Of a stretch of DNA of 24,577 nt, positions 12,213 to 23,656 are shown in pieces. The notes below the pieces were generated by a model that saw only the letters and a program-made list of their open reading frames with translations, searched no databases and was not told where the DNA came from. The DNA is from a virus: positions 1-24,577 of IMG/VR virus record IMGVR_UViG_3300048117_000167; one strand, given 5' to 3'. Within the stretch, counting starts at the first letter, position 1. Each line of letters opens with the position of its first letter. Both the position numbers and the translations under genes were made by a program.

Positions 12213-12339
12213 CTAATTCAACAAAACAAACAAATGAAAAAAGTAATTTTATAGCCTCGTCTGACTTTCCTGACTTCCTAGAGGCAACCTAGGTACTCTA
12301 TTCTACGCTTTCACGCTTTTTACCATCGCTAGGTTAATG
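12213..12339 (-). other. Transcribed segment between tRNA-Ala and its terminator, possible small RNA
   Basis: About 127 nt with no ORF. It holds CCTAG-N7-CTAGG (12278-12294), a longer-range ACCTAG/CTAGGT pair spanning about 12288-12335, and short direct repeats (AGTCAG-GAA-AGTCAG; AAAGCGTG-AAAGCGTA on the minus strand). It should be co-transcribed with the tRNA. It could be an ncRNA or simply a 3' trailer. Confidence 0.35.
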
Positions 12340-12413
12340 TGGAGGATATCGGAGTCGAACCGATGACCTCTTGAATGCAAATCAAGTGCTCTAGCCAGCT
12401 GAGCTAATCCCCC
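12340..12413 (-). tRNA. tRNA-Ala (anticodon TGC)
   Basis: The minus strand starts GGGGGATTAGCTCAGC and folds as a full cloverleaf. The acceptor arm GGGGGAT/ATCCTCC contains a G3:U70 pair, the known alanine identity element. The anticodon stem is CTTGA/TCAAG with loop TTTGCAT (anticodon TGC, reading GCA). The T-arm is ATCGG-TTCGACT-CCGAT. The discriminator is A, and CCA is not encoded. It has its own promoter about 100 nt upstream and a terminator about 130 nt downstream, unusual isolation for a phage tRNA. Confidence 0.93.
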
Positions 12414-12513
12414 AAGATACTAAGACTTACACTTTACTATTTCCTTGGATTTCACTCCTTCGGCTTCGGTTGCTTAGTTTATATTTTAAAGAACGTTTAT
12501 CGTTTTGTTAGTA

Positions 12514-12545
12514 CAAACATACGAAATATATTTGACACTACCAAA
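12514..12545 (-). promoter_or_regulatory. Bacteroidota-type promoter (second class) for tRNA-Ala
   Basis: On the minus strand TTTG at 12545-12542, 20-nt spacer, TATGTTTG at 12521-12514. The spacer holds TGTCAAATAT and the palindrome AAATATATTT. It shares TGTCAAATAT-N4-CGTATGTTTG with the promoter at 22150. Transcription would run into a leader of about 100 nt (12414-12513, no gene) and then the tRNA. Confidence 0.7.
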
Positions 12546-13007
12546 TTATCCACGAAATTTTCTGATATTTTTTATTACAGCGTCTACTCTAAGCTTGTCA
12601 GCTATGCCGTTACCTACTGATGTGTATGGCTTCACTAAGCAAGTTGTGGTAATAACTCCGTCTCTAACTATAGCGTAATACATAGTGCCTTGAGACTCAC
12701 CTCTACTATTGTGTATAGATGCTACTAACTGCTTACCTTTACTTGACTGCTTGTCAGCTTCGCTATTAAACTTAGTTAAGCTCATTTGTAGTTGGCCTAA
12801 CATAAAAGCATAAGACTTCCTAGAGCTCGTCTTAAGAGCTGAGATAGCCTCTAACTTGTCCTTAACTTGTTGTTTGAAGCTGTCTGATATAGACATAGTA
12901 CCTACTTTAGTGTAGTTAGCTGTAGTAGACTCTACTTTAACGTCTACGCTTGCAAGAGCTTCTAATCTCTGCTCCATTCTCTCGTTAGTGTGATTCGTTA
13001 CTGTCAT
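12546..13007 (-). CDS. Small phage protein of unknown function
   Basis: 153 residues, soluble and basic, no signal peptide. The first 70 residues look helical (NERMEQRLEALASVDV, FKQQVKDKLEAISALK). The C-terminal part has a beta hairpin-like stretch, GTMYYAIVRDGVITTTCLVK, then a Lys/Arg-rich end. I recall similar short 'AIVRDGxIxT' proteins in flavobacterial phages without assigned role. It shares one base with the upstream 93-residue gene and belongs to the unit driven by the promoter at 13299. Its end abuts the -33 box of the next promoter. Confidence 0.6.
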   Translation of the reverse strand: MTVTNHTNERMEQRLEALASVDVKVESTTANYTKVGTMSISDSFKQQVKDKLEAISALKTSSRKSYAFMLGQLQMSLTKFNSEADKQSSKGKQLVASIHNSRGESQGTMYYAIVRDGVITTTCLVKPYTSVGNGIADKLRVDAVIKNIRKFRG

Positions 13008-13288
13008 TATTGCTTTATTTTTACATTCATAACTCTACCGAAGCTATCTTTATAGCTGCCTTTCACACTCCCCATAAGTTGGTCATACATAAAGTCGGAG
13101 CGTACACCGTCCCAAGCGTTTCTATCCCCCTCTAGAGTTATGTATTGAACTGAGTCTAAGTAACCTTTGTAGTCCCTAAAGTGAACTATAGCTTTATGGT
13201 CTGCTGTAAGAGAGCCCAATTTTTTCAGGGTTTCTATTGTTACTTCTTTTTTCGGGAACTTGTTAGAGAATGTCATATCTTGTTTCAT
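13007..13288 (-). CDS. Small phage protein of unknown function (start moved inside the longer frame)
   Basis: 93 residues starting MKQDMTFSNKFPKKEV. A longer frame starts at 13309, but that ATG overlaps the -7 box of the promoter at 13299-13306, so transcripts would begin downstream of it. The ATG at 13288 is therefore the better start, giving a very short leader. MTFSNKF a few codons on is a further option. The protein is soluble and mixed alpha/beta (HKAIVHFRDYKGYLDSVQYI), and I do not recognise it. The next gene starts on its last base, which indicates a two-gene unit. Confidence 0.6.
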   Translation of the reverse strand: MKQDMTFSNKFPKKEVTIETLKKLGSLTADHKAIVHFRDYKGYLDSVQYITLEGDRNAWDGVRSDFMYDQLMGSVKGSYKDSFGRVMNVKIKQ

Positions 13289-13298
13289 TTTGATAGTA

Positions 13299-13329
13299 CA
13301 AATATACATAAAAAAATAAAGCCACCAAA
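13299..13329 (-). promoter_or_regulatory. Bacteroidota-type promoter with upstream palindrome
   Basis: Minus strand: TTTG (13329-13326), 19-nt spacer, TATATTTG (13306-13299), an exact fit to the Bacteroidota consensus. The palindrome at 13350-13370 lies 20 bp upstream of the -33 box. It drives the 93- and 153-residue genes. Confidence 0.8.
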
Positions 13330-13349
13330 CTATTTGATGACTTTTTTCT

Positions 13350-13370
13350 TATTTATATTCATTATGAATA
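13350..13370. promoter_or_regulatory. Palindromic operator-like site (copy 1)
   Basis: TATTTATA-TTCAT-TATGAATA, a 21-bp dyad with one mismatched pair. The gap to the -33 box of the promoter at 13299 is 20 bp. It sits just after the stop of the 56-residue ORF. Confidence 0.65.
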
Positions 13371-13371
13371 A

Positions 13372-13542
13372 CTAGCCTAGAGCTCTGTCTATTCTAGTAA
13401 GTTGCTTTTTTAACTCTGCTCTAGTAGCCGTTATCTGATTGATACGCTCTAGAATGGCCTCACGTCTATATCTAAGAGACGCCTCTGTCTCTGGAGCTGT
13501 GTGAGTAGTGAGCTTATTAAGCATTAACTGTAATTCTCTCAT
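13372..13542 (-). CDS. 56-residue helical protein
   Basis: Starts MRELQLMLNKLTTHTAPETE and continues as a highly charged helix (RYRREAILERINQITATRAE, then LKKQLTRIDRALG), probably a coiled coil. It starts 3 nt after the stop of the 25-residue membrane peptide and ends at the operator-like palindrome, so it is the last gene of the unit driven from 14665. Amino-acid pattern and tight packing support translation. I do not recognise it. A small DNA-binding or anti-factor role is possible but not shown. Confidence 0.6.
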   Translation of the reverse strand: MRELQLMLNKLTTHTAPETEASLRYRREAILERINQITATRAELKKQLTRIDRALG

Positions 13543-13545
13543 ATA

Positions 13546-13623
13546 CTAATATAAAGTTATTGCCCTAATGGCTATGTAGATGACTACAAACAGACAAACT
13601 GCTGTGCCCTCCTTCCTACTCAT
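13546..13623 (-). CDS. 25-residue single-span membrane peptide
   Basis: Reads MSRKEGTAVC, then LFVVIYIAIRAITLY: a positively charged N-terminus and one hydrophobic span filling the rest. The ATG overlaps the stop of the upstream 76-residue membrane protein (ATGA), which implies coupled translation. It resembles many tiny phage inner-membrane peptides. A holin-like or inhibitory role is conceivable, but length and sequence alone do not show it. The stop lies 3 nt before the next gene. Confidence 0.5.
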   Translation of the reverse strand: MSRKEGTAVCLFVVIYIAIRAITLY

Positions 13624-13850
13624 ATTACGTTGAATATTTGTAGAGTGTATCCTATTACGCTGGATATATTAAGTAATACTAAATTCCATTGCTTAGCCTT
13701 GTACACTTGAGGTGTAAGCATAGCTATGCCTAGAGCCAGCAACACAAAGCCTATTTGATAGCTGACTAGATATGGAGCTACTAGGAGTACGCCAGTACCC
13801 ATATAAGCCACCTTATCCGTTAAATCTATCTTCTTTTTAACTGTTTTCAT
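13620..13850 (-). CDS. Small integral membrane protein
   Basis: 76 residues. A basic N-terminus (MKTVKKKIDLTDK) precedes three hydrophobic segments: VAYMGTGVLLVAPYLVSY, IGFVLLALGIAMLTP and LVLLNISSVIGYTLQIF. An inner-membrane location is clear from hydrophobicity. It overlaps the upstream gene by 14 nt and the 25-residue peptide by 4 nt. Holin or membrane-modifying protein are possible roles, but no endolysin is visible next to it, so neither can be assigned. Confidence 0.6.
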   Translation of the reverse strand: MKTVKKKIDLTDKVAYMGTGVLLVAPYLVSYQIGFVLLALGIAMLTPQVYKAKQWNLVLLNISSVIGYTLQIFNVI

Positions 13851-14121
13851 CTGGATTAGCTTTTAGGTAGTAATGTACGTATATCTCGTTAACCTTGTCA
13901 GTCATCTGCTGCCCTTGTTCATATTCGTGCTTACCTACGTGTCTAGCGTTCCCAGTCTCTATAACTAGGTTGACATAGCTCTTAGTCTTTGTCTTTGGTT
14001 TACCGTTAGCACCTACACCTCTATATGTATATGTATTAACAGTACACTGAGGGTACACCCTTAGAGAGTTAGTGCTCATAGCCCAGCTCTTAGCTTTCTC
14101 TATAGTTTTATAACTGGACAT
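13837..14121 (-). CDS. Small phage protein of unknown function
   Basis: 94 residues, basic, soluble. It contains VYPQCTVNTYTYRGVGANGK, a Lys/Thr-rich patch PKTKTKSY and an acidic C-terminus. Beta-rich character with many Tyr and Thr. I do not recognise a family. It overlaps its neighbours by 14 nt on each side within the unit driven from 14665, which supports it being a real gene. Confidence 0.55.
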   Translation of the reverse strand: MSSYKTIEKAKSWAMSTNSLRVYPQCTVNTYTYRGVGANGKPKTKTKSYVNLVIETGNARHVGKHEYEQGQQMTDKVNEIYVHYYLKANPDENS

Positions 14122-14326
14122 CTATCTTACCGTTTTTATAGTGGTTGACAACTACTCCAGTCTTAAGCGTTACAGTTCTGTAAGGCTTTACGTTTATCTT
14201 AATAAGTATATTGTTTATCATATCCTTAGGATTGAGTTTCCATAGTGCAATGTATCTCACTGTGTTACCTACCTTTAAAACAAGGTAGTCATCATACGTT
14301 ACGTGATAGCTTATGTATTTTTTCAT
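14108..14326 (-). CDS. Small phage protein of unknown function
   Basis: 72 residues, basic and beta-rich: MKKYISYHVTYDDYLVLKVG, then VRYIALWKL, and the C-terminal hairpin-like VTLKTGVVVNHYKNGKIDVQ. No signal or membrane segment. Not recognised. It shares one base with the upstream 106-residue gene and 14 nt with the downstream gene, so it is part of the same coupled cluster. Confidence 0.55.
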   Translation of the reverse strand: MKKYISYHVTYDDYLVLKVGNTVRYIALWKLNPKDMINNILIKINVKPYRTVTLKTGVVVNHYKNGKIDVQL

Positions 14327-14646
14327 TATATATCTGTGTAAGGGTTAAAAGGTTCTCCGTAAGCTTCGACAGATAGCTCCTCGTGTATCTCTCTTCCTTC
14401 CTCTGTTAGTACGTAGTCTACCTTACCTCCGCCTAACATAAAGTAGTCTATATGCTCAACAGTCTCCTCAAACTCAACTCCAGCTTGTTCTATAAGCCAG
14501 TTATAAGCGAAGTGACCAGTGTACTCGTCTATAATGTACGAGCCTCTGTAATCACTGTTTATGTAGTCTTTAAGGTCGAACACAGTCTCCACCTCATTCT
14601 CTGGCAGTGTTGGGTCAAATTTCTGATTGGTATATGTTACTTTCAT
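14326..14646 (-). CDS. Acidic phage protein of unknown function (start moved downstream of promoter)
   Basis: 106 residues starting MKVTYTNQKFDPTLP. A frame start 48 nt further up lies within the promoter at 14665-14695 (its first codons encode the -33 box), so it cannot be transcribed from that promoter. The protein is acidic with FDLKDYINSDYRGSYIIDEY and FEETVEHIDYFMLGGGKVDY. Early phage proteins of this charge often bind host proteins, but that is only a general observation. First gene of a six-gene cluster. Confidence 0.6.
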   Translation of the reverse strand: MKVTYTNQKFDPTLPENEVETVFDLKDYINSDYRGSYIIDEYTGHFAYNWLIEQAGVEFEETVEHIDYFMLGGGKVDYVLTEEGREIHEELSVEAYGEPFNPYTDI

Positions 14647-14664
14647 TGCTTTGTTATTATGATA

Positions 14665-14695
14665 CAAATATAAGGTAAATTCTATAACTACCAAA
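14665..14695 (-). promoter_or_regulatory. Bacteroidota-type promoter with upstream palindrome
   Basis: Minus strand: TTTGGTAG with TTTG at 14695-14692, 19-nt spacer, TATATTTG at 14672-14665. The palindrome at 14706-14726 ends 10 bp upstream. It drives the cluster 14646 to 13372. Confidence 0.85.
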
Positions 14696-14705
14696 CATTA
14701 TGCGT

Positions 14706-14726
14706 TATTTATATTGATTCTAAATA
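14706..14726. promoter_or_regulatory. Palindromic operator-like site (copy 2)
   Basis: TATTTATA-TTGAT-TCTAAATA, a 21-bp dyad with one mismatched pair, 10 bp from the -33 box of the promoter at 14665. It starts directly after the stop codon of the gene at 14728. Confidence 0.7.
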
Positions 14727-14727
14727 G

Positions 14728-15264
14728 CTATATCTGTATGTAGAGTCCTGAGTTAATGAAAGCTGGACTAAGATTGAACTGTAAACCTATTAAGTTAGTT
14801 AGCCTAACCTTGTAGGTGGCCGTCACTATAGGTATACGTGAATTCTCTATCATAGTGCTAGGTAGATATCTGTTCATAAGCCTAGCGTTAACCTCGTCTA
14901 GATAAGCTTTGCTATAGTTGTCAGCAACCCCTAGCTGTATAGATAGCTGGCTGGTATCACTCTCTGACAAGTTAAAGCCAAACATTAAGTACTTACTGTA
15001 GTCTCCGTAGCTGTTCTGCATTATACCCATAGTAAAGTGAAGTCCATTACTACTTCTAGTTATAAGGAAGCCCTCAGAGCCTCCCTCAGAGCCTAGTCTA
15101 GAGTTATCATATAGCGGATTACTAGAGAAGTGCTTAGTGTGTACTGGTGTGTAGATGTGAGTACCCTCCCAGCTTTGAGCGTTAGCCTGTGTTCCTATCA
15201 ACATAGCTCCTAGAAATGCTAATCCTACTAGGAGCGTTGCTATTATGTTTTTTATTGTTTCCAT
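14728..15264 (-). CDS. Exported outer-membrane-barrel-like protein
   Basis: 178 residues. A clear signal peptide (METIKNIIATLLVGLAFLGA, then cleavage near TQANAQ-SW at about residue 30) directs export. The mature part has alternating beta strands: GFLITRSSNGLHFTMGIMQN, SKYLMFGFNLSE, QLSIQLGVADNYSK, TATYKVRLTNLIGLQFNLSP, and ends in GLYIQI with aromatic/hydrophobic alternation as in small outer membrane barrels. The layout recalls PagP-sized barrels seen in some phages, an uncertain comparison. The ATG overlaps the upstream stop (TAATG). A role in changing the cell surface or blocking superinfection is inference. Confidence 0.6.
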   Translation of the reverse strand: METIKNIIATLLVGLAFLGAMLIGTQANAQSWEGTHIYTPVHTKHFSSNPLYDNSRLGSEGGSEGFLITRSSNGLHFTMGIMQNSYGDYSKYLMFGFNLSESDTSQLSIQLGVADNYSKAYLDEVNARLMNRYLPSTMIENSRIPIVTATYKVRLTNLIGLQFNLSPAFINSGLYIQI

Positions 15265-15485
15265 TAGATTGACTTTATAAACTTGTTAGAGAACTCAACC
15301 GCATCAACTAGACTCAACCCTTCAGCGACCATCTGCATTCTGTGACCGAACTTATGCCAAACGTCGTGACTCCCATCTAAGCCTGAGATAGAAACTTCAT
15401 TGTTGCTATATAAGCTGTGTTTTATTGTTTGAGATGTAGTTCTTGAGATGTTGTTTTCTAGTTGGTTTTCGATAGTAAAGTACAT
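15264..15485 (-). CDS. Small phage protein of unknown function (start moved downstream of promoter)
   Basis: 73 residues starting MYFTIENQLENNISRTTS. The longer frame start at 15536 lies in the -33 box of the promoter at 15507-15537 and cannot be on that transcript. The protein has HDVWHKFGHRMQMVAEGLSL followed by an amphipathic helix VDAVEFSNKFIKSI. No signal peptide. Not recognised. It is the first gene of a two-gene unit with the exported barrel-like protein, overlapping it by one base. Confidence 0.55.
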   Translation of the reverse strand: MYFTIENQLENNISRTTSQTIKHSLYSNNEVSISGLDGSHDVWHKFGHRMQMVAEGLSLVDAVEFSNKFIKSI

Positions 15486-15506
15486 AACTGTTTGTTTTTG
15501 TTGATA

Positions 15507-15537
15507 CAAATATAAGACATATTTATATACTACCAAA
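15507..15537 (-). promoter_or_regulatory. Bacteroidota-type promoter without palindrome
   Basis: Minus strand: TTTGGTAG with TTTG at 15537-15534, 19-nt spacer, TATATTTG at 15514-15507. Upstream (15541-15568) are long A and T runs that could act as an UP-like element or weak terminator. The 21-bp palindrome is absent. Confidence 0.8.
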
Positions 15538-15578
15538 CTTTTTAGAAACTTTTTTTAAAAAACTTTACTTTTAATCTG

Positions 15579-16787
15579 TTAGCCTATGAAGTATCTACCC
15601 TTGTTAGGGTTGGCTAATTGGTAAGAGACAGCATATCTAAGTGCATCAAGCTGGTGATCAAAACCGTTCTGTAACGGTGTCTCTGCCTTAGTGTCGCTCC
15701 ATTGGTAGTTATTGAGCTCTTTAATGATGTTAGTGCTGTCAGGCGTTACTATAAGCTCATAGTCCTGTAGTAAAGCTATACCGTAGTTAACAGAACCCTG
15801 TCCTTTAATGGTAGGTACTATATTGCAATATCTCTTTAACTCACTAATAAGTCTAGGCTCAGCTGAGTCACCTACTATCACGTTTCTACCAGCCACTTGG
15901 CTAAATATAGCTCCTAGCTGGCTTGTATTGAGGTTAGGCTTATTGAGATGCTCCTTAATATATATACGCTTATTGGCCTTATCTATGCTCGTAGACAATA
16001 ACGTTGACGGGTCAGTGCTATAGCCGAAGTCAGCCCCTAGTACATCTATACCTTGACTCTTATACTCACCTATACTCCAGTTAGTAAAGATAACCCCCTC
16101 AGCTTTTTCTCTCCAGCCCCCTAGTATAGTGTGATTGTACTCGCTAGGCCTACGCTCCTTCATAGTGTCCATTGAGGTAAGGAAGGACTCACCTAGGTTC
16201 TCTATATTATCTAGGTAAGTGGTATGTATATATGTAGTGTCCTTCTCAGTCATATTGCTTCCTGAGTTGACACCAGCCTCCTGAAAGAATCTCTTGTATA
16301 TCCAATGCTCCTTTGTAGCTGGGTTTAATACTAGGATAACTCTGTTCTGTATGTCCTTAGCACGTATAGAGTAGTCTATCTTAGTGAATAGGTTGTTGTC
16401 TGGTATCTCCTCAGCCTCGTCACATATCCACGTTGTTATGTTAGCTAACGACTTGAGAGCAGCCGTTTGATTCCCTGAGCCAGTCTTAAGACCCTTGAAG
16501 TATATACGATTACCAGTAACTCTATTGGTTATCTCTGTCCTATTGATCTCAAAGTACTCCTCTAACCCTAGAGCTTCTATCTTATCTGTAAATTCAGGAA
16601 TGATAGACGTGTATGCTGACGACATAGTATAACGAGTGAAAAGTATATTCTGCTCCTTCTCGAATGTAAGAAATAGAGCCATTAAGTTCACACTATATGA
16701 CTTACCAGAGCCTCGACCTCCAGTGAGTACGAAGTATCTACTAGGGTCTTGTATAAGAGGTTTATATTTTCCGTGTAGAGTTATCAC
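15579..16787 (-). CDS. terL: Terminase large subunit
   Basis: 402 residues. The packaging motor: ATPase domain plus nuclease domain. Walker A is GGRGSGKS (23-30), preceded by YFVLT. Walker B is TTWICDEAEEI with D123 and E124. LVLNPATKEHW (153-162) is the coupling region. Nuclease acidic residues are visible as GADFGYSTDPS (D253), VGDSAEPR (D307) and FDHQLDALRYA (D377, D381). This is the Terminase_3 (SPP1 gp2-like) arrangement at usual length. It overlaps the small subunit gene by 4 nt. Virion genes do not follow; about 3.4 kb of small genes and a tRNA lie between it and the tail tube gene. Confidence 0.95.
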   Translation of the reverse strand: MITLHGKYKPLIQDPSRYFVLTGGRGSGKSYSVNLMALFLTFEKEQNILFTRYTMSSAYTSIIPEFTDKIEALGLEEYFEINRTEITNRVTGNRIYFKGLKTGSGNQTAALKSLANITTWICDEAEEIPDNNLFTKIDYSIRAKDIQNRVILVLNPATKEHWIYKRFFQEAGVNSGSNMTEKDTTYIHTTYLDNIENLGESFLTSMDTMKERRPSEYNHTILGGWREKAEGVIFTNWSIGEYKSQGIDVLGADFGYSTDPSTLLSTSIDKANKRIYIKEHLNKPNLNTSQLGAIFSQVAGRNVIVGDSAEPRLISELKRYCNIVPTIKGQGSVNYGIALLQDYELIVTPDSTNIIKELNNYQWSDTKAETPLQNGFDHQLDALRYAVSYQLANPNKGRYFIG

Positions 16788-17086
16788 TCCTCGTCCTTAA
16801 AATTGATTAGATTACTTAATGTGAAGTTAATATCTTGCTTACCGTCCATCTTAACGTCTACAGATTGCTTAGGAGTGCCGTGTACGTACTTCATAAACAA
16901 ATCTATAGCTCTATAGTCTCCTTTATTAATAAGCTCTCCTAGCTTCTCTATGACCATACCTTGGTCTATGTGCTCTGAGAGTATCTCTTTAACATTCTCT
17001 ATGTACTCCTTCTTAGGTCTACCAGAGTTCTCTCTACGACCACCCCAGTTAGGTGAGTCTCCATCTTGTTTCTTTCTACCAGCCAT
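16784..17086 (-). CDS. terS: Terminase small subunit
   Basis: 100 residues. The N-terminus MAGRKKQDGDSPNWGGRREN with NSGRPKK is a basic motif common in small terminases, followed by helical regions (EYIENVKEILSEHIDQ, AIDLFMKYVHGTPKQS) and a short acidic tail. It recognises phage DNA and loads the large subunit. It overlaps the large subunit gene by 4 nt and the upstream lipoprotein gene by 11 nt, so the three are likely translated together. Confidence 0.8.
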   Translation of the reverse strand: MAGRKKQDGDSPNWGGRRENSGRPKKEYIENVKEILSEHIDQGMVIEKLGELINKGDYRAIDLFMKYVHGTPKQSVDVKMDGKQDINFTLSNLINFKDEE

Positions 17087-17504
17087 TCTTAAGCTCTTTA
17101 GTGATTGTATTAATTGTAGTTTGATCTACATATCTAGGCATCCCCTTAACCATTAGTAGAGTGCCGTTATCGTGCTCCCAGTCCAATAGATCGTGTGCTA
17201 GCTCGTGGTACATAGTCATACGCTTCTGATACTTAGTCATACGTAGCCAACTGTTAGCGTTTATCTGTATGTGAGTTACATTGGCATTCATACCAAAGGC
17301 TATACCTAGAACGCCCTGAGGGAGGTTAGTAGAGAACTGTATATAGACAGTCTCACCCTTGTTAGCTCTATCACCTACTATATTAAGGAAGTCCTCGTAG
17401 TAAGACTTCAGCTCTGGATGTACATATTCCCAGTCTGGCGTCTCATTACTCTTACAACCTGATAAGATCATAAGGACTATTAATATAAGTGATCTTGATA
17501 ACAT
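17076..17504 (-). CDS. Putative exported zinc-metallopeptidase-like lipoprotein
   Basis: 142 residues. MLSRSLILIVLMILSGC is a lipoprotein signal with lipobox LSGC (Cys17). The mature part carries MYHELAHDLLDWEHD: HExxH at 100-104 and a further His at 111 (spacing of six residues), with candidate ligands H100, H104 and H111 and catalytic E101. I recall similar HEL(A/G)HD motifs in flavobacterial phage proteins. It heads the terminase unit, 8 nt after a 14-mer late element, so it should be made late. Cleavage of envelope protein or peptidoglycan peptides during exit would fit but is inference; substrate unknown. Confidence 0.65.
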   Translation of the reverse strand: MLSRSLILIVLMILSGCKSNETPDWEYVHPELKSYYEDFLNIVGDRANKGETVYIQFSTNLPQGVLGIAFGMNANVTHIQINANSWLRMTKYQKRMTMYHELAHDLLDWEHDNGTLLMVKGMPRYVDQTTINTITKELKNGW

Positions 17505-17512
17505 CTTGATTC

Positions 17513-17526
17513 TTTATTTAAAAACA
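17513..17526 (-). promoter_or_regulatory. Late-gene leader element TGTTTTTAAATAAA (copy D)
   Basis: A perfect copy of the 14-mer, 8 nt before the ATG of the lipoprotein-terminase unit and about 25 nt after a strong terminator. The position between terminator and first gene supports a role in starting a transcript. Confidence 0.6.
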
Positions 17527-17550
17527 TTCTAAATAACGTGATGTGACTAT

Positions 17551-17577
17551 AAAAAGAAAGCCCTCATTCCTGAGAGC
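17551..17577 (-). terminator. Strong rho-independent terminator overlapping a stop codon
   Basis: Minus strand: GCTCTCA-GGAA-TGAGGGC then TTTCTTTTT. The 7-bp stem has one U-G pair and a GNRA-type loop. The TGA stop of the 60-residue ORF lies inside the stem. It ends the unit that starts at the promoter at 18878. Confidence 0.85.
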
Positions 17578-17746
17578 GTTTCTTCCTGTTTAAGCTGGAT
17601 AACTGTTTCATCCTTGTAAGCCTGACCAATTCATTAGCCCAGTATAATACGTGTTTCTTGTGTATCAACTCATTTGGTGACTTGTTTAGGTTGTCTTTAG
17701 CCTCCTCTAGCTTAGACTTAGCTTTTAGTATTAACTTGTTCAGCAT
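17564..17746 (-). CDS. 60-residue basic helical protein
   Basis: Starts MLNKLILKAKSKLEEAKDNL and ends LSSLNRKKRSQE. Very basic, helical and probably coiled-coil, no membrane span. The reading frame ends within the terminator hairpin, which shares sequence with its last codons. It overlaps the upstream 63-residue gene by 29 nt, long for this window; a later start is possible but no better ATG lies near the overlap end. Not recognised. Confidence 0.5.
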   Translation of the reverse strand: MLNKLILKAKSKLEEAKDNLNKSPNELIHKKHVLYWANELVRLTRMKQLSSLNRKKRSQE

Positions 17747-17909
17747 CTCTAATAGCTTTTAGGAGGTTGGTTAAAGCCTCTTGTTTCATTGTTATAGTTC
17801 TAAGGCTTGTCTCTATATACTGGTAGACGTAGTCTTGTAAGTAATCTAGCCTCTCATTTGCTGGGAGCTCTTTGAACTCGTCACTGGTAATAAATTTATC
17901 TATCTTCAT
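17718..17909 (-). CDS. 63-residue helical protein
   Basis: MKIDKFITSDEFKELPANER then LDYLQDYVYQYIETSLRTIT and a second helix KQEALTNLLKAIRDAEQV. Acidic to neutral, soluble, predicted all-helical from heptad-like spacing. It starts one base after the stop of the 107-residue gene, in the same unit. The family is not recognised. Confidence 0.55.
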   Translation of the reverse strand: MKIDKFITSDEFKELPANERLDYLQDYVYQYIETSLRTITMKQEALTNLLKAIRDAEQVNTKS

Positions 17910-17910
17910 A

Positions 17911-18234
17911 TTATTTAGTTACTTCTATTTTAGTTATGTATGATTTGCAGTCAACAATAGTAAACTCTACTATAGCGTGTTTTGTCTCCATTGCTCCTAG
18001 ACCGTTCTCCGCTTGCATCTTAATAAGATACTTTAGCACGTTTCCTGACTTATATGTGAGCTCAGAGTCTATGCTGTGAACTTTGTAGTTAGCTTTACCC
18101 TCAATTACTTCCTCAGCTATATAACTCATAAGTATAGTGTCGCTAGTGTCACAAGTCTCTGGAGTTGGAGATAGCAATATGTAAGCAAATAAAGCTACTA
18201 TCGAAATTAATATATATTTAATTGTTTTTCTCAT
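17911..18234 (-). CDS. Membrane-anchored or exported small protein
   Basis: 107 residues. The N-terminus MRKTIKYILISIVALFAYIL is a signal sequence or membrane anchor. Two Cys in the remainder (ETCDTSD and VDCKSY) could form a disulphide outside the cytoplasm. The C-terminal half is beta-rich (AIVEFTIVDCKSYITKIEVT). Not recognised. It follows the exported papain-like gene and the 51-residue ORF in one unit, so two envelope-directed proteins are co-expressed; an immunity-like pairing is conceivable but unsupported. Confidence 0.55.
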   Translation of the reverse strand: MRKTIKYILISIVALFAYILLSPTPETCDTSDTILMSYIAEEVIEGKANYKVHSIDSELTYKSGNVLKYLIKMQAENGLGAMETKHAIVEFTIVDCKSYITKIEVTK

Positions 18235-18386
18235 AATACATCTTCTATTGTTGGGTTAGTAAAATCTACACAAGCGTCAGAAGGATATTGCTTAAGTATG
18301 TCCTCAGCTACTCTATCTACTGCCTTACTTTCTGTGTTTAGGAGGTATCTGTCTCCGTTTACTGTCATTACTGTTAAGTTACTCAT
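18231..18386 (-). CDS. 51-residue acidic protein
   Basis: Starts MSNLTVMTVNGDRYLLNTES, continues KAVDRVAEDILKQYPSDACV and ends TIEDVL. The ATG overlaps the stop of the papain-like gene (ATGA) and its own stop overlaps the next start (ATGA), so it fills the gap exactly and is almost certainly translated. Compact alpha/beta character, no signal peptide. Not recognised. Confidence 0.65.
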   Translation of the reverse strand: MSNLTVMTVNGDRYLLNTESKAVDRVAEDILKQYPSDACVDFTNPTIEDVL

Positions 18387-18856
18387 ATCTGTATTGCGTA
18401 TATAATGTTAAGTACACTGTCTAAAGGGTCTCCGTGTAGGTGTAGCTTACCAGTCTCACTATTGTATTTCAATGTATGCACGTGTCTCTGGCTTATTACT
18501 ATGTAGCTACTTCCTTCTGAGGCCAACTCTTTAGAGAACCTCCTAGAGTTTATGTGATTAACTGCGAAGTGTTTGGCTTCATTATCTAGCTCACTAACTA
18601 CCATACCTACTAAAGACTTAGCGTCCATACCTTTGCCTTTATCTCTACCGTACTTTGTAGTCAACTCTAAGGCTCTCTGGTAGCTTATGTCAAACGCTGA
18701 GGCTATAGCTCTAACTGAGCAGTCGTTAGACTCTCCTACTGCCTCTCTGTCTGCTGTGTGAACTTTGTATGTGTTCACTATCTTACCTTTAAGCTTAACT
18801 TGTGCAGAAGCCGTGACTCCTATTACTAACGCTATAATTAAAAATATTGTTCTCAT
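18383..18856 (-). CDS. Exported papain/C39-like cysteine peptidase-like protein
   Basis: 157 residues. A signal peptide (MRTIFLIIALVIGVTASAQ) is followed by NDCSVRAIASAFDISYQRAL with candidate nucleophile C46, then GRDKGKGMDAKSLVGMVV, and SSYIVISQRHVHTLKY with H125 or H127. Phage proteins with this Cys-helix plus late His layout are known to me as papain-fold (C39-like) proteins, usually cytoplasmic. Export here is unusual. It is the first gene of its unit, 22 nt after the -7 box at 18878. Activity is not proven; it may be a non-catalytic binder. Confidence 0.6.
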   Translation of the reverse strand: MRTIFLIIALVIGVTASAQVKLKGKIVNTYKVHTADREAVGESNDCSVRAIASAFDISYQRALELTTKYGRDKGKGMDAKSLVGMVVSELDNEAKHFAVNHINSRRFSKELASEGSSYIVISQRHVHTLKYNSETGKLHLHGDPLDSVLNIIYAIQI

Positions 18857-18877
18857 TGATCTGTTATTTTGTTAATA

Positions 18878-18908
18878 CAAATATACATATAAATATTACA
18901 CAAACAAA
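18878..18908 (-). promoter_or_regulatory. Bacteroidota-type promoter with upstream palindrome
   Basis: Minus strand: TTTG at 18908-18905, 19-nt spacer, TATATTTG at 18885-18878. The -33 box lies in a (TTTG)n-like run; only this copy gives the 19-nt spacing. The palindrome at 18930-18950 is 21 bp upstream. Confidence 0.75.
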
Positions 18909-18929
18909 CAAAAACTTACTTTTTTTAAC

Positions 18930-18950
18930 AATTTATACTGATTCTAAATA
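18930..18950. promoter_or_regulatory. Palindromic operator-like site (copy 3)
   Basis: AATTTATA-CTGAT-TCTAAATA, a weaker copy of the 21-bp dyad. The gap to the -33 box of the promoter at 18878 is 21 bp. The stop codon of the nuclease gene ending at 18944 lies inside the site. Confidence 0.6.
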
Positions 18951-19330
18951 AGCTTATTCATATTGATAGTATAACAGAGCTTATCTACATACTCATTATT
19001 GGAGAACTCTGTAGTCTTTGGGCATTTAATCTTAACAGGAGGCTTAGATAAGGTATCTCTGTCTTTACTGATATTCTTGTAATAGATGCCACTAGGGTCT
19101 TTAACTACATATACGAAGTCTTTACCCTTCTCTTGAGCTATAACAGTGTTTCTGCATATCTTATCGAACTCTATTAGCTTCTCGTCATACACCTTACCCC
19201 TGACCTTTAGCTCTATGATAGCCTTATCGCTCTCACAGTCATAAGGACTATAAGGATTCTCTGCTTCGTGTATATCTGTCTCTGATAGAAGCATAAGCTC
19301 TACCATTAAGTCTCTCTCTGATTGCTTCAT
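18944..19330 (-). CDS. Small PD-(D/E)XK-like nuclease
   Basis: 128 residues. ESDKAIIELKVRGKVYDEKL (about 33-52) contains an acidic residue followed by I-I-E-L-K, the (D/E)xK signature of this nuclease fold. GKDFVYVVKDPSGIYYKNIS gives a following strand pair, and PKTTEFSNNEYVDKLCYTIN closes the protein. I recall this C-terminal PK(T/S)TEF pattern from flavobacterial phage nucleases. A role in recombination or DNA processing beside the RecE-like gene fits. It overlaps the upstream gene by 4 nt. Catalysis and substrate are inference. Confidence 0.6.
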   Translation of the reverse strand: MKQSERDLMVELMLLSETDIHEAENPYSPYDCESDKAIIELKVRGKVYDEKLIEFDKICRNTVIAQEKGKDFVYVVKDPSGIYYKNISKDRDTLSKPPVKIKCPKTTEFSNNEYVDKLCYTINMNKLI

Positions 19331-19635
19331 AGTACTGCATTTATAGCGTCATTCTCATCTCCATCTGTCATCTGCATAAACTTCAACTCTACTTCTGAGG
19401 GCTTCTCGTCTAGCTTAGCTTTAAGGCTGTTAGCTATTCTCTTAGCGTCTCTAACTGCGTATCCCACTGACTTGTAGTCTAGCTCTAGCTGGTTAGTGTA
19501 GAAAACTGACTGTATTAAAGCCTCAGCTACAGCATTTAGCTCTTTGTTATCTGGCTTAGCCTCTAGCCACTTGGAGACAACTTCATTAGCTGCCTCCATA
19601 GCTGAATAATACTTAATTGATTGAAAGTCCTTCAT
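19327..19635 (-). CDS. Helical phage protein of unknown function (shorter start preferred)
   Basis: 102 residues starting MKDFQSIKYYSAMEAANEVV. An ATG 24 nt earlier would overlap the upstream gene by 25 nt; the chosen ATG overlaps its stop by one base (TAATG), the usual spacing in this window. The protein is helical (ELNAVAEALIQSVFYTNQLE, KSVGYAVRDAKRIANSLKAK) with an acidic end. Not recognised. It lies between recombination genes and could be an accessory factor. Confidence 0.6.
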   Translation of the reverse strand: MKDFQSIKYYSAMEAANEVVSKWLEAKPDNKELNAVAEALIQSVFYTNQLELDYKSVGYAVRDAKRIANSLKAKLDEKPSEVELKFMQMTDGDENDAINAVL

Positions 19636-19841
19636 TAATAGGTGTTTTTGATTCTGCATCCACCGTCATACTCCTTCCACTGAGCTAGAGCTACTGTCAT
19701 AGCAGCACAAGCTTCGTAGTTCTCGTCCTCCTCATAGTTCTCTAGGATGTATTCTAACATCTGAGGCTCTACACCTTGAGCTAGGCTTATATATGTGCTC
19801 TCTAGCACCATCTTGTACATAGGGTCGTTTTCTATATTCAT
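19635..19841 (-). CDS. 68-residue acidic protein
   Basis: MNIENDPMYKMVLESTYISL then QMLEYILENYEEDENYEACA, with MTVALAQWKEYDGGC. Strongly acidic, helical, two Cys. Not recognised. It overlaps the RecE-like gene by 4 nt (ATGA) and the next gene by one base, so it belongs to the recombination unit. Confidence 0.6.
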   Translation of the reverse strand: MNIENDPMYKMVLESTYISLAQGVEPQMLEYILENYEEDENYEACAAMTVALAQWKEYDGGCRIKNTY

Positions 19842-20647
19842 ATTACTGATTCTTTATGGTATTGTGATAAATCTATTAACTCGTCTATAAAAAAGGCTTC
19901 GTATAACTTGAGACACGCATCTAGCTTTAACTTACCAGACTCTAAGGTCTCTTGACTAGCTTTGAAGATTCCGATATCTGTAGTAGTCTTGTCTACTACT
20001 AGCCACCAGAAGTCAGGAACATTATACAGCTGAGTGTATAGATAAGCCTGTAGGTCATAATCGTATTTTTGAACGGTGAAAGCGAACTGATTCTTTATAG
20101 TGCCATTCTTTAAATCTACTGACTTTACTCCGTCGTTAGTGGTCTTTACGTCCGCTACATACTGTTTAGCCTTATATATGTCAGCCTTAGCTCTTATAGG
20201 TAGTCCATTCATAAGCTCTATAGCTGGGACTTCTGTCTCTGCACCCTGTAAGAAACTGACAGCTCTGTCGTTCTGTAGAAACGCTGTACTGATTCGGTCA
20301 TTCATATACTTCTCCTTAAGTGTAAAAGTATTAGCCTTACCAGATTCCTCAACCGCTAGCTTCCACTTCTTAGTGTTTTTGCTACTAACGTCAACAAAGC
20401 TAAACGTGTCATACTTCTGAGGTTCTAGTATTTGAGCGTGTACAAGTCTACCGTCTCTCAGAGCTTGAGTCTCAGGGTCTGGCTTCCTTAACTTGTAGTC
20501 GAACCACTTAGGAGACTTTAATAGCCACTTAAGCGAACTGTAGCTTAAGGCTCTCTCTAGTCCTAGAAACTGGTAGTAGAACGAGTCCTCTACCATATTG
20601 TCTAGGAGCTCTTTTTTATCGTATTCTTTATGGTCTAGTAGCTTCAT
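19838..20647 (-). CDS. RecE-like exonuclease (PD-(D/E)XK)
   Basis: 269 residues. LRDGRLVHAQILEPQKYD (63-80) carries H70 and E75, PIRAKADIYKAKQYVADVKT (150-169) carries D156, D166 and K168, and FTVQKYDYDLQAYLYTQLYN (190-209) carries the QxxxY motif (Q200). This is the RecE C-terminal/DUF3799 layout of 5'-3' double-strand exonucleases used in phage recombination. No annealing protein or SSB was recognised in the window. It follows two very short ORFs in the unit driven from 20900. Confidence 0.8.
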   Translation of the reverse strand: MKLLDHKEYDKKELLDNMVEDSFYYQFLGLERALSYSSLKWLLKSPKWFDYKLRKPDPETQALRDGRLVHAQILEPQKYDTFSFVDVSSKNTKKWKLAVEESGKANTFTLKEKYMNDRISTAFLQNDRAVSFLQGAETEVPAIELMNGLPIRAKADIYKAKQYVADVKTTNDGVKSVDLKNGTIKNQFAFTVQKYDYDLQAYLYTQLYNVPDFWWLVVDKTTTDIGIFKASQETLESGKLKLDACLKLYEAFFIDELIDLSQYHKESVI

Positions 20648-20648
20648 A

Positions 20649-20765
20649 TTAAAAGATTCCGAAGTCTCCAGATACTCCGTTGATTAAGTTATAGATTAAT
20701 GCTAAGATTCCAGACGTTGCTAGAGCGAATAAACAAAAGGATACTGTGTTTAATATATACTTCAT
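20649..20765 (-). CDS. 38-residue membrane peptide
   Basis: MKYILNTVSFCLFALATSGI then LALIYNLINGVSGDFGIF: a hydrophobic span from about residue 4 to 28 with a short polar end. It is either a single-span peptide or a signal-like leader. The stop lies one base before the exonuclease ATG. AT-rich tandem repeats just upstream may form its translation leader. Function unknown. Confidence 0.5.
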   Translation of the reverse strand: MKYILNTVSFCLFALATSGILALIYNLINGVSGDFGIF

Positions 20766-20770
20766 AATAA

Positions 20771-20792
20771 AGTTATTTAAAAGTTATTTAAA
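20771..20792. repeat. Tandem 11-bp repeat AGTTATTTAAA x2
   Basis: Two perfect copies with a four-base start of a third. They span the end of the 29-residue ORF and the leader of the 38-residue ORF. On the minus strand they contain TTTTAAATAA, similar to the late 14-mer. Confidence 0.7.
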
Positions 20793-20866
20793 AGTTCGTT
20801 GATTTCGTAGTCATAGACTCCGTAAGCGTTATCTATGTTATTGAGTGTGTTTATATAGTTGTTCAT
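20777..20866 (-). CDS. 29-residue leader ORF
   Basis: MNNYINTLNNIDNAYG, then VYDYEINELLNNF. Asn/Tyr-rich and acidic. It is the first ATG after the promoter at 20900, about 34 nt downstream of the -7 box, and ends in the tandem repeats before the 38-residue ORF. It could be a small protein or an upstream ORF that controls the exonuclease unit. Support is position only. Confidence 0.4.
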   Translation of the reverse strand: MNNYINTLNNIDNAYGVYDYEINELLNNF

Positions 20867-20899
20867 CGTGTTTGATTTAATTATTATTGTTTAACAGTA

Positions 20900-20930
20900 C
20901 AAATATAAGCATAGTTTTGTAACTACCAAA
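20900..20930 (-). promoter_or_regulatory. Bacteroidota-type promoter with upstream palindrome
   Basis: Minus strand: TTTGGTAG with TTTG at 20930-20927, 19-nt spacer, TATATTTG at 20907-20900. The perfect palindrome at 20941-20961 ends 10 bp upstream. It drives the RecE-like recombination unit. Confidence 0.85.
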
Positions 20931-20940
20931 CTTTTACGAC

Positions 20941-20961
20941 TATTTATATTGATTATAAATA
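20941..20961. promoter_or_regulatory. Palindromic operator-like site (copy 4, perfect dyad)
   Basis: TATTTATA-TTGAT-TATAAATA with perfect 8-bp arms, 10 bp from the -33 box of the promoter at 20900. It adjoins the T-tract of the preceding terminator. Confidence 0.75.
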
Positions 20962-20984
20962 AGAAAGCCCTCCGTTAAGAGGGC
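20957..20984 (-). terminator. Rho-independent terminator after the nucleotide hydrolase gene
   Basis: Minus strand: GCCCTC-TTAACG-GAGGGC followed by TTTCTTATTT. The stem is perfect (6 bp). It ends the phosphoesterase/hydrolase unit 8 nt after the stop codon. Confidence 0.85.
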
Positions 20985-22950: not shown

Positions 22951-23088
22951 TTATCTTTTAGAACCCTGTCCTCTGTTGGGTTGTTTATATTTATTTTGAC
23001 TTTTACTAGCGTTTTTAGAGTGAACTCCTTTTCTTTTTCTTTTTGGCTTATCTAGTGAAGCCGTGTAGAATCCTGTTTTTCTAGCCAT
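22951..23088 (-). CDS. 45-residue very basic phage protein
   Basis: MARKTGFYTASLDKPKRKRK, then GVHSKNASKSQNKYK and a C-terminal NRGQGSKR. About one third of residues are Lys or Arg. This matches a short basic protein I have often seen in phages of Bacteroidota (KRKGVHSKN and RGQG motifs), of unknown function; nucleic-acid binding would fit the charge. It overlaps the sigma-like gene by 8 nt. Confidence 0.7.
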   Translation of the reverse strand: MARKTGFYTASLDKPKRKRKGVHSKNASKSQNKYKQPNRGQGSKR

Positions 23089-23656
23089 TGTAGTTTCCTT
23101 TTATATAATTAACGTAATCTTTGTACAGTTTATCTGCTATTATAAGCTTGCTCTTTTTTATTGATAGGTATATGGTTTGGATACCTAGACCACTCTCCTC
23201 AGCCAATACTCTGAACGACTTACCAGTCTTTAAGTACTTTCTGAATAGTTCGTAGTCGAACCAATCTTCTGAGCTCTCTTTCAGTACCTCGTACATTTTA
23301 GTCTCAAGAGACTCTATAGCTTCTATACTGGGGTCGATTCCCTCGTCTATAAGCTCGAAGCAGTAGTCCATATCGTACTGGTCCCCTACGTGGTTGTACT
23401 TAGGCTCTCTAACTTTCTTAAGGTCATTGAATATAATAGACCGCAGTGTGAAAAACATATATCCTTTACTAGCCTTCTCTCCGTCTACTATCTTGTCATA
23501 CAAATCGTCATACCTTAGTAGCTTAATATAAGCTTCCTGAACATAGTCCTCAGCGTAGTTTCTGACCTTAAAGTTGTTACCAGCTAAACTCTTAGCTGCG
23601 TCAATGAAGTCAGAGTGATGTACTGACAGTAATTCTATAGCTTTATACTTCGACAT
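23081..23656 (-). CDS. Phage RNA polymerase sigma-70-like factor
   Basis: 191 residues. Residues 35-46 (AEDYVQEAYIKL) match region 2 of ECF-type sigma factors, and GYMFFTLRSIIFNDLKK (65-81) fits regions 2.3-2.4 for promoter melting and -10 contact. Residues about 138-175 (FRKYLKTGKSFRVLAEESGL, then IQTIYLSIKKSKL) form a region-4 helix-turn-helix. It would redirect host RNA polymerase to phage promoters. The 14-mer before the late units is its most plausible target; this is inference. It overlaps the membrane protein gene by 14 nt and the basic protein gene by 8 nt. Confidence 0.75.
   Translation of the reverse strand: MSKYKAIELLSVHHSDFIDAAKSLAGNNFKVRNYAEDYVQEAYIKLLRYDDLYDKIVDGEKASKGYMFFTLRSIIFNDLKKVREPKYNHVGDQYDMDYCFELIDEGIDPSIEAIESLETKMYEVLKESSEDWFDYELFRKYLKTGKSFRVLAEESGLGIQTIYLSIKKSKLIIADKLYKDYVNYIKGNYNG

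Follow-up and report, generated by a model that had tools for sequence, protein, structure and literature searches.

Four promoters in a 24.6-kb fragment from a marine flavobacterial phage (the whole stretch of DNA analysed, hereafter the window) are preceded by near-palindromic boxes of the flavobacterial Fur type, and the same box recurs in the same helical phase before promoters of very diverse phages and before host operons; in hosts it also occurs at genes connected with iron, haem and Fe-S proteins. The explanation that we consider probable is that host Fur activates the phage promoters from these phased boxes. The window encodes terminase, exonuclease and primase/helicase genes, and all genes concerned with the boxes lie on the minus strand. 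The 21-mers at 13350, 14706, 18930 and 20941 have 1, 1, 2 and 0 mismatches to TATTTATA-N5-TATAAATA. At up to 3 mismatches the window holds five such dyads against 0.67 expected from shuffles, and none of 100 shuffled windows reached five. Each of the four dyads lies upstream of a promoter of the form TTTG-N19-TATATTTG, with gaps from box end to the -33 TTTG of 20, 10, 21 and 10 bp in the same order. Dyads, promoters and gaps were found as the original prediction had described them. Two of the boxes precede units of small genes; of the other two, one precedes the unit with the exonuclease gene and one a unit whose first gene encodes a predicted exported protein. In the order of transcription, the features are:

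20967 to 20984, minus strand: terminator-like hairpin belonging to the preceding operon, immediately before box A (hairpin scan)
20941 to 20961, minus strand: Fur-type box A, gene-strand sequence TATTTATAATCAATATAAATA, 10 bp from TTTG
20900 to 20930, minus strand: promoter A, -33 TTTG at 20927-20930, 19-bp spacer, -7 TATATTTG at 20900-20907
19838 to 20647, minus strand: recombination gene of the DUF3799/exonuclease VIII-like type, the principal gene of unit A
18930 to 18950, minus strand: Fur-type box B, gene-strand sequence TATTTAGAATCAGTATAAATT, 21 bp from TTTG
18878 to 18908, minus strand: promoter B, -33 TTTG at 18905-18908, -7 TATATTTG at 18878-18885
18383 to 18856, minus strand: 157-aa protein, predicted to be exported, first gene of unit B
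15507 to 15537, minus strand: promoter C, without a box in the window
14706 to 14726, minus strand: Fur-type box D, gene-strand sequence TATTTAGAATCAATATAAATA, 10 bp from TTTG
14665 to 14695, minus strand: promoter D, -33 TTTG at 14692-14695, -7 TATATTTG at 14665-14672
13372 to 14694, minus strand: unit D, small genes (open reading frame list)
13350 to 13370, minus strand: Fur-type box E, gene-strand sequence TATTCATAATGAATATAAATA, 20 bp from TTTG
13299 to 13329, minus strand: promoter E, -33 TTTG at 13326-13329, -7 TATATTTG at 13299-13306
12546 to 13309, minus strand: unit E, two small genes without assigned function

Box B shares sequence with the stop codon of the gene before it. The open reading frame listed from 14694 overlaps promoter D, so its true start must be further in. 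A terminator-like hairpin with a T-tract at 13318-13344 (minus strand) overlaps promoter E, so that sequence is shared between the operon that ends here and the promoter of the one that follows. Two further gene-strand promoters of the window, at 15537 after the terminase gene and at 12545 before a tRNA-Ala gene, have no box. The stretch 12339-12545 holds the tRNA-Ala (TGC) on the gene strand together with this promoter of its own, and a second consensus promoter at 12504 points in the opposite orientation.

Many close relatives of the window were collected from IMG/VR and every promoter was scored for its highest-scoring box, all gaps between 3 and 69 bp being allowed. Box scores of 15-16 out of 16 occurred only at gaps of 10, 20, 21, 30 and 31 bp, and no out-of-phase gap was seen in the range scored. 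Gaps scattered over all phases, which the original prediction had named as contrary evidence, were looked for in relatives, and what was found were gaps in phase and full boxes before promoters. The same promoter retains its box among relatives, with the gap shifting by whole turns (10 to 20, 20/21 to 31, 20 to 30/31). Promoter A (20930), whose box is kept in at least 14 relative loci, has a gap of 10 in one relative group and 20 in another. At promoter B (18908) the gap is 20 or 21, and it is 31 in a 36-kb relative that carries about 10 bp extra between box and promoter. Promoter C (15537), unboxed in the window's own group, is boxed in relatives at gaps of 20, 30 or 31, and promoter E (13329) has gaps of 20 or 30 in relatives. 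All four full boxes of the 36-kb relative precede TTTG-type promoters. In the same relative (L352, L353) the genes that match the window change strand between one half of the contig and the other, either by inversion or as an assembly artefact. The box is not universal, since none was found before promoters in the sequenced relatives Nonlabens phage P12024L and Riemerella phage RAP44.

A phase-blind scan of IMG/VR, in which box and promoter were accepted at any gap from 3 to 33 bp, returned at least 119 stretches. Unique cases among the matches listed had gaps of 9-10, 12, 14, 19-22 and 29-33 bp, and none of these matches fell at 3-8, 11, 13, 15-18 or 23-28 bp. Extending the scan to gaps of 33-63 bp added cases near 41-42 and 53-54 bp. 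The matches listed formed 87 promoter clusters with gap peaks near 10, 20-22, 30-32 and 41-42 bp, and their Rayleigh R at 10.5 bp was 0.87 (best period 10.6-10.7 bp) with p ~1e-29, a value that is only indicative because the clusters were grouped by promoter similarity and are not a phylogeny. Measured to the -7 box, the distances in the clustered set were about 33, 43.5, 54.5 and 65 bp. A second scan required the box alone, took TAnnTTTG as the -7 element and gave at least 109 distinct sites. Among the matches listed, 54 of 109 distinct sites had TAnnTTTG 21-80 bp away, mostly at 33-34, 43-46, 52-56 and 65 bp (R 0.85, p ~2e-17 for these 54), and about a third of the boxes (37 of 109) had no -7 element within 80 bp. 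When the pattern was written backwards as a control, a single match was obtained against at least 119, and in viral contigs the box lay downstream of a promoter in 4 cases against at least 119 upstream. There is strong support for the earlier proposal of a DNA-bound protein that acts from one helix face, the phasing in the IMG/VR scans being far outside chance.

The Fur box published for Riemerella anatipestifer is the 19-bp sequence ATTTAGAATTATTCTAAAT, and gel-shift assays showed binding of purified Fur to promoter fragments that carry putative boxes (PMC5609570). The phage consensus encompasses this box with 0-2 changes. The consensus built from the clustered phage promoters, TATTTAGAATnATTmTAAATw, departs from the flavobacterial Fur box ATTTAGAATnATTCTAAAT mainly at position 15, and the four window sites have 2, 2, 3 and 4 mismatches to the latter. 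Box E, with 4 mismatches to the published Fur box, is the weakest of the four and is near-perfect in relatives.

Cellular genomes carry box plus promoter at 56 loci, nearly all in Bacteroidota. At most of these the box precedes a cytochrome gene with cytochrome c matches (Pfam, NCBIfam) and a sub-threshold match to menaquinone reductase QrcA, and we identify this gene as the first of an alternative complex III (act) operon. Other cellular boxes precede hemA, nqrA and a NuoE-like 2Fe-2S protein. In hosts the gap is mainly 22 bp and the promoter spacer 18 bp, an arrangement that puts the box in the same phase with respect to -7. In one genome the promoter of sdhC also carries a box in phase. In a search of seven genomes for symmetric boxes, sites were found between hemA and an AraC-type gene, at a 2-oxoacid:ferredoxin oxidoreductase gene and over the start of sufS, the last being the position expected of a repressor. 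The near-perfect form of the box is rare in host genomes, as a survey of 299 genomes of one family yielded nine exact box-plus-promoter matches. Each of seven hosts out of seven has 1-3 Fur-family genes, and no clear box indicative of fur autoregulation was present near the fur genes of the hosts examined. In Flavivirga-type genomes (L233, L241, L244) a phased box precedes a conserved 93-aa protein with no assigned function.

Class I activator promoters, for example those of CRP, are active only when the activator site lies at upstream positions about one turn apart. The phage boxes likewise lie at one-turn intervals upstream of the -33 element; the comparison is one of geometry, and the protein, its site and the class of promoter are not those of the CRP case. 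In the proposed mechanism host Fur would bind the dyads upstream of ordinary flavobacterial (-33/-7) promoters, helically phased like class I activator sites. Metal-loaded Fur would then sit on a fixed helix face and contact RNA polymerase, most likely through the alpha C-terminal domain, and transcription of the phage operons would be raised in an iron-replete cell. Fur identity, activation and polymerase contact are all inferred, activation from the geometry and the host targets, and the label "activator" for the dyad-binding protein carries the same qualification. The most plausible reading of a directional, phased, upstream box before iron-using respiratory genes is that of an activator site, and the iron state of the host may thus switch phage genes.

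Fur is known chiefly for repression. It might accordingly repress from the phased upstream box by contacting polymerase, so that the phage operons open in iron-starved cells. Phasing by itself cannot separate activation from contact-dependent repression, and the boxed phage promoters, which are no closer to or farther from the consensus than unboxed ones, are near-consensus, look strong unaided and might not need an activator. Nevertheless, repression of this kind appears unlikely, as host boxes in the same phase precede iron-using respiratory genes, which are expected to go up and not down in plentiful iron, and as the boxes that do occupy what look like repressor positions are symmetric and close to the -7 box. 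Among the matches listed in the box-only scan, fully symmetric boxes with a promoter were close to the -7 box in six of seven cases, whereas asymmetric boxes were upstream of the promoter in 53 of 65 (Fisher p 7e-4). The imperfect half faced the promoter in 49 of these 53 upstream asymmetric boxes (49:4, p 7e-11). At five loci of other phages (L375, L376, L396, L398, L443) symmetric boxes lie 13-15 bp before the -7 element, upstream of a MAV(E/K).. gene, and by their form and position look like repressor-type Fur sites.

The consistent difference of the upstream boxes from the symmetric repressor form could also mean that in-phase activation comes from another host protein that recognises the asymmetric box, for example a second Fur-family paralogue or some respiratory regulator unrelated to Fur. 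Some hosts do have 2-3 Fur-family genes. In the published R. anatipestifer data, act and sdh transcripts drop in low iron in the wild type and in the fur mutant alike, and Fur-dependent activation of act and sdh is therefore unsupported in that organism. One draft genome (G009) speaks against such a protein, as it has an act box and a sufS box and a single Fur-family gene, and the chance that another host protein is responsible is judged to be rather slim.

A phage-encoded activator, as the original prediction had supposed, would account for the window's phage group, in which one genome carries several boxes, each before a different operon. The same phased box, however, is found at host operons and in very diverse phages, and the Fur family (PF01475) was found in none of 19 box-carrying phage records, several of which are fragments. 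The box match, the host iron, haem and Fe-S genes behind it and this lack of a phage Fur homologue favour a host regulator and make a phage activator very improbable. Of the earlier claim, the DNA-bound regulator working from one helix face stands and its assignment to the phage probably does not; the regulator of the phage boxes is most likely host Fur. The genes under the boxes are diverse. Elsewhere, the first longer downstream genes of other phages fell into 115 PHROG families among 100 proteins, and those that could be named encode exonucleases, Erf-type annealing proteins, replication initiators, helicase loaders, methyltransferases and HNH nucleases. These genes point to a host regulator placed over DNA-metabolism and small-gene operons and not over accessory iron genes. 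The last alternative, that the dyads are intrinsic terminators or RNA hairpins at operon ends, draws on their location at or just past the stop codons of preceding genes and was rejected as having next to no chance, since the arms are all A/T in place of a G+C-rich stem, no T-tract follows them on the gene strand, a separate hairpin was called at 20967-20984, and helical phasing and directionality do not fit.

Phage promoters with a site for a host nutrient regulator are known from the PHO boxes of cyanophages and from a Fur-controlled gene of some lambdoid phages. Those cases concern accessory genes in few phages, whereas the operons involved here, in many phages, serve recombination and replication or hold small genes, and are apparently activated. 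The R. anatipestifer system shares with the phage boxes the 19-bp palindrome, the bacterial group and the -33/-7 promoters; there the box is reported as a repressor site near the start codon of iron-uptake and other genes, and the available part of the report describes neither phased upstream activation nor phage sites (PMC5609570). Metal-bound Fur acts as a positive regulator from an upstream position at Salmonella hilD, which, as far as the accessible text of that study shows, is a single chromosomal case, in contrast to the strict phase rule at many phage promoters (PMC3089636). Each element was thus known separately: the Fur box, class I phasing and the presence in phages of sites for host regulators. 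No prior description of Fur boxes in Bacteroidetes phages was found in the open-access literature, most subscription journals being outside this scope; what is new is the range of phages involved, the strictness of the phasing over as many as five turns and the directionality of the box. On balance, the data lean towards many unrelated Bacteroidota phages gating recombination, replication and small-gene operons on host iron by means of a directional Fur box. This asymmetric variant of the repressor palindrome would activate from up to five phased turns upstream, in a mode shared with host respiratory operons. Iron limits growth across much of the ocean. If the proposal is true, phage gene expression in a major marine and freshwater bacterial group would be wired to cellular iron, phase and box asymmetry would provide a sequence-readable and testable rule for Fur-dependent activation, and the host act and sdh operons would be named as candidate direct Fur-activated genes.

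The fifth dyad-like match of the window, at 17515, was rejected as a further member of the set because it has no promoter and is a half box fused to a conserved motif, TGTTTTTAAATAAAG. This second motif, T(T/C)TGTTTTTAAATAAA(G/C), here TGTTTTTAAATAAA, is found on the gene strand at 17524, 12163, 5679 and 3236 and is joined to the half Fur-type box at 17515-17535. It lies 7-20 bp before the starts of structural and packaging genes, recurs in relatives and is perhaps a late promoter or leader. A phage-encoded sigma-70/ECF-like factor at 23081-23656 (minus strand; PHROG 1740, weak NCBIfam matches) is a candidate reader of this motif.
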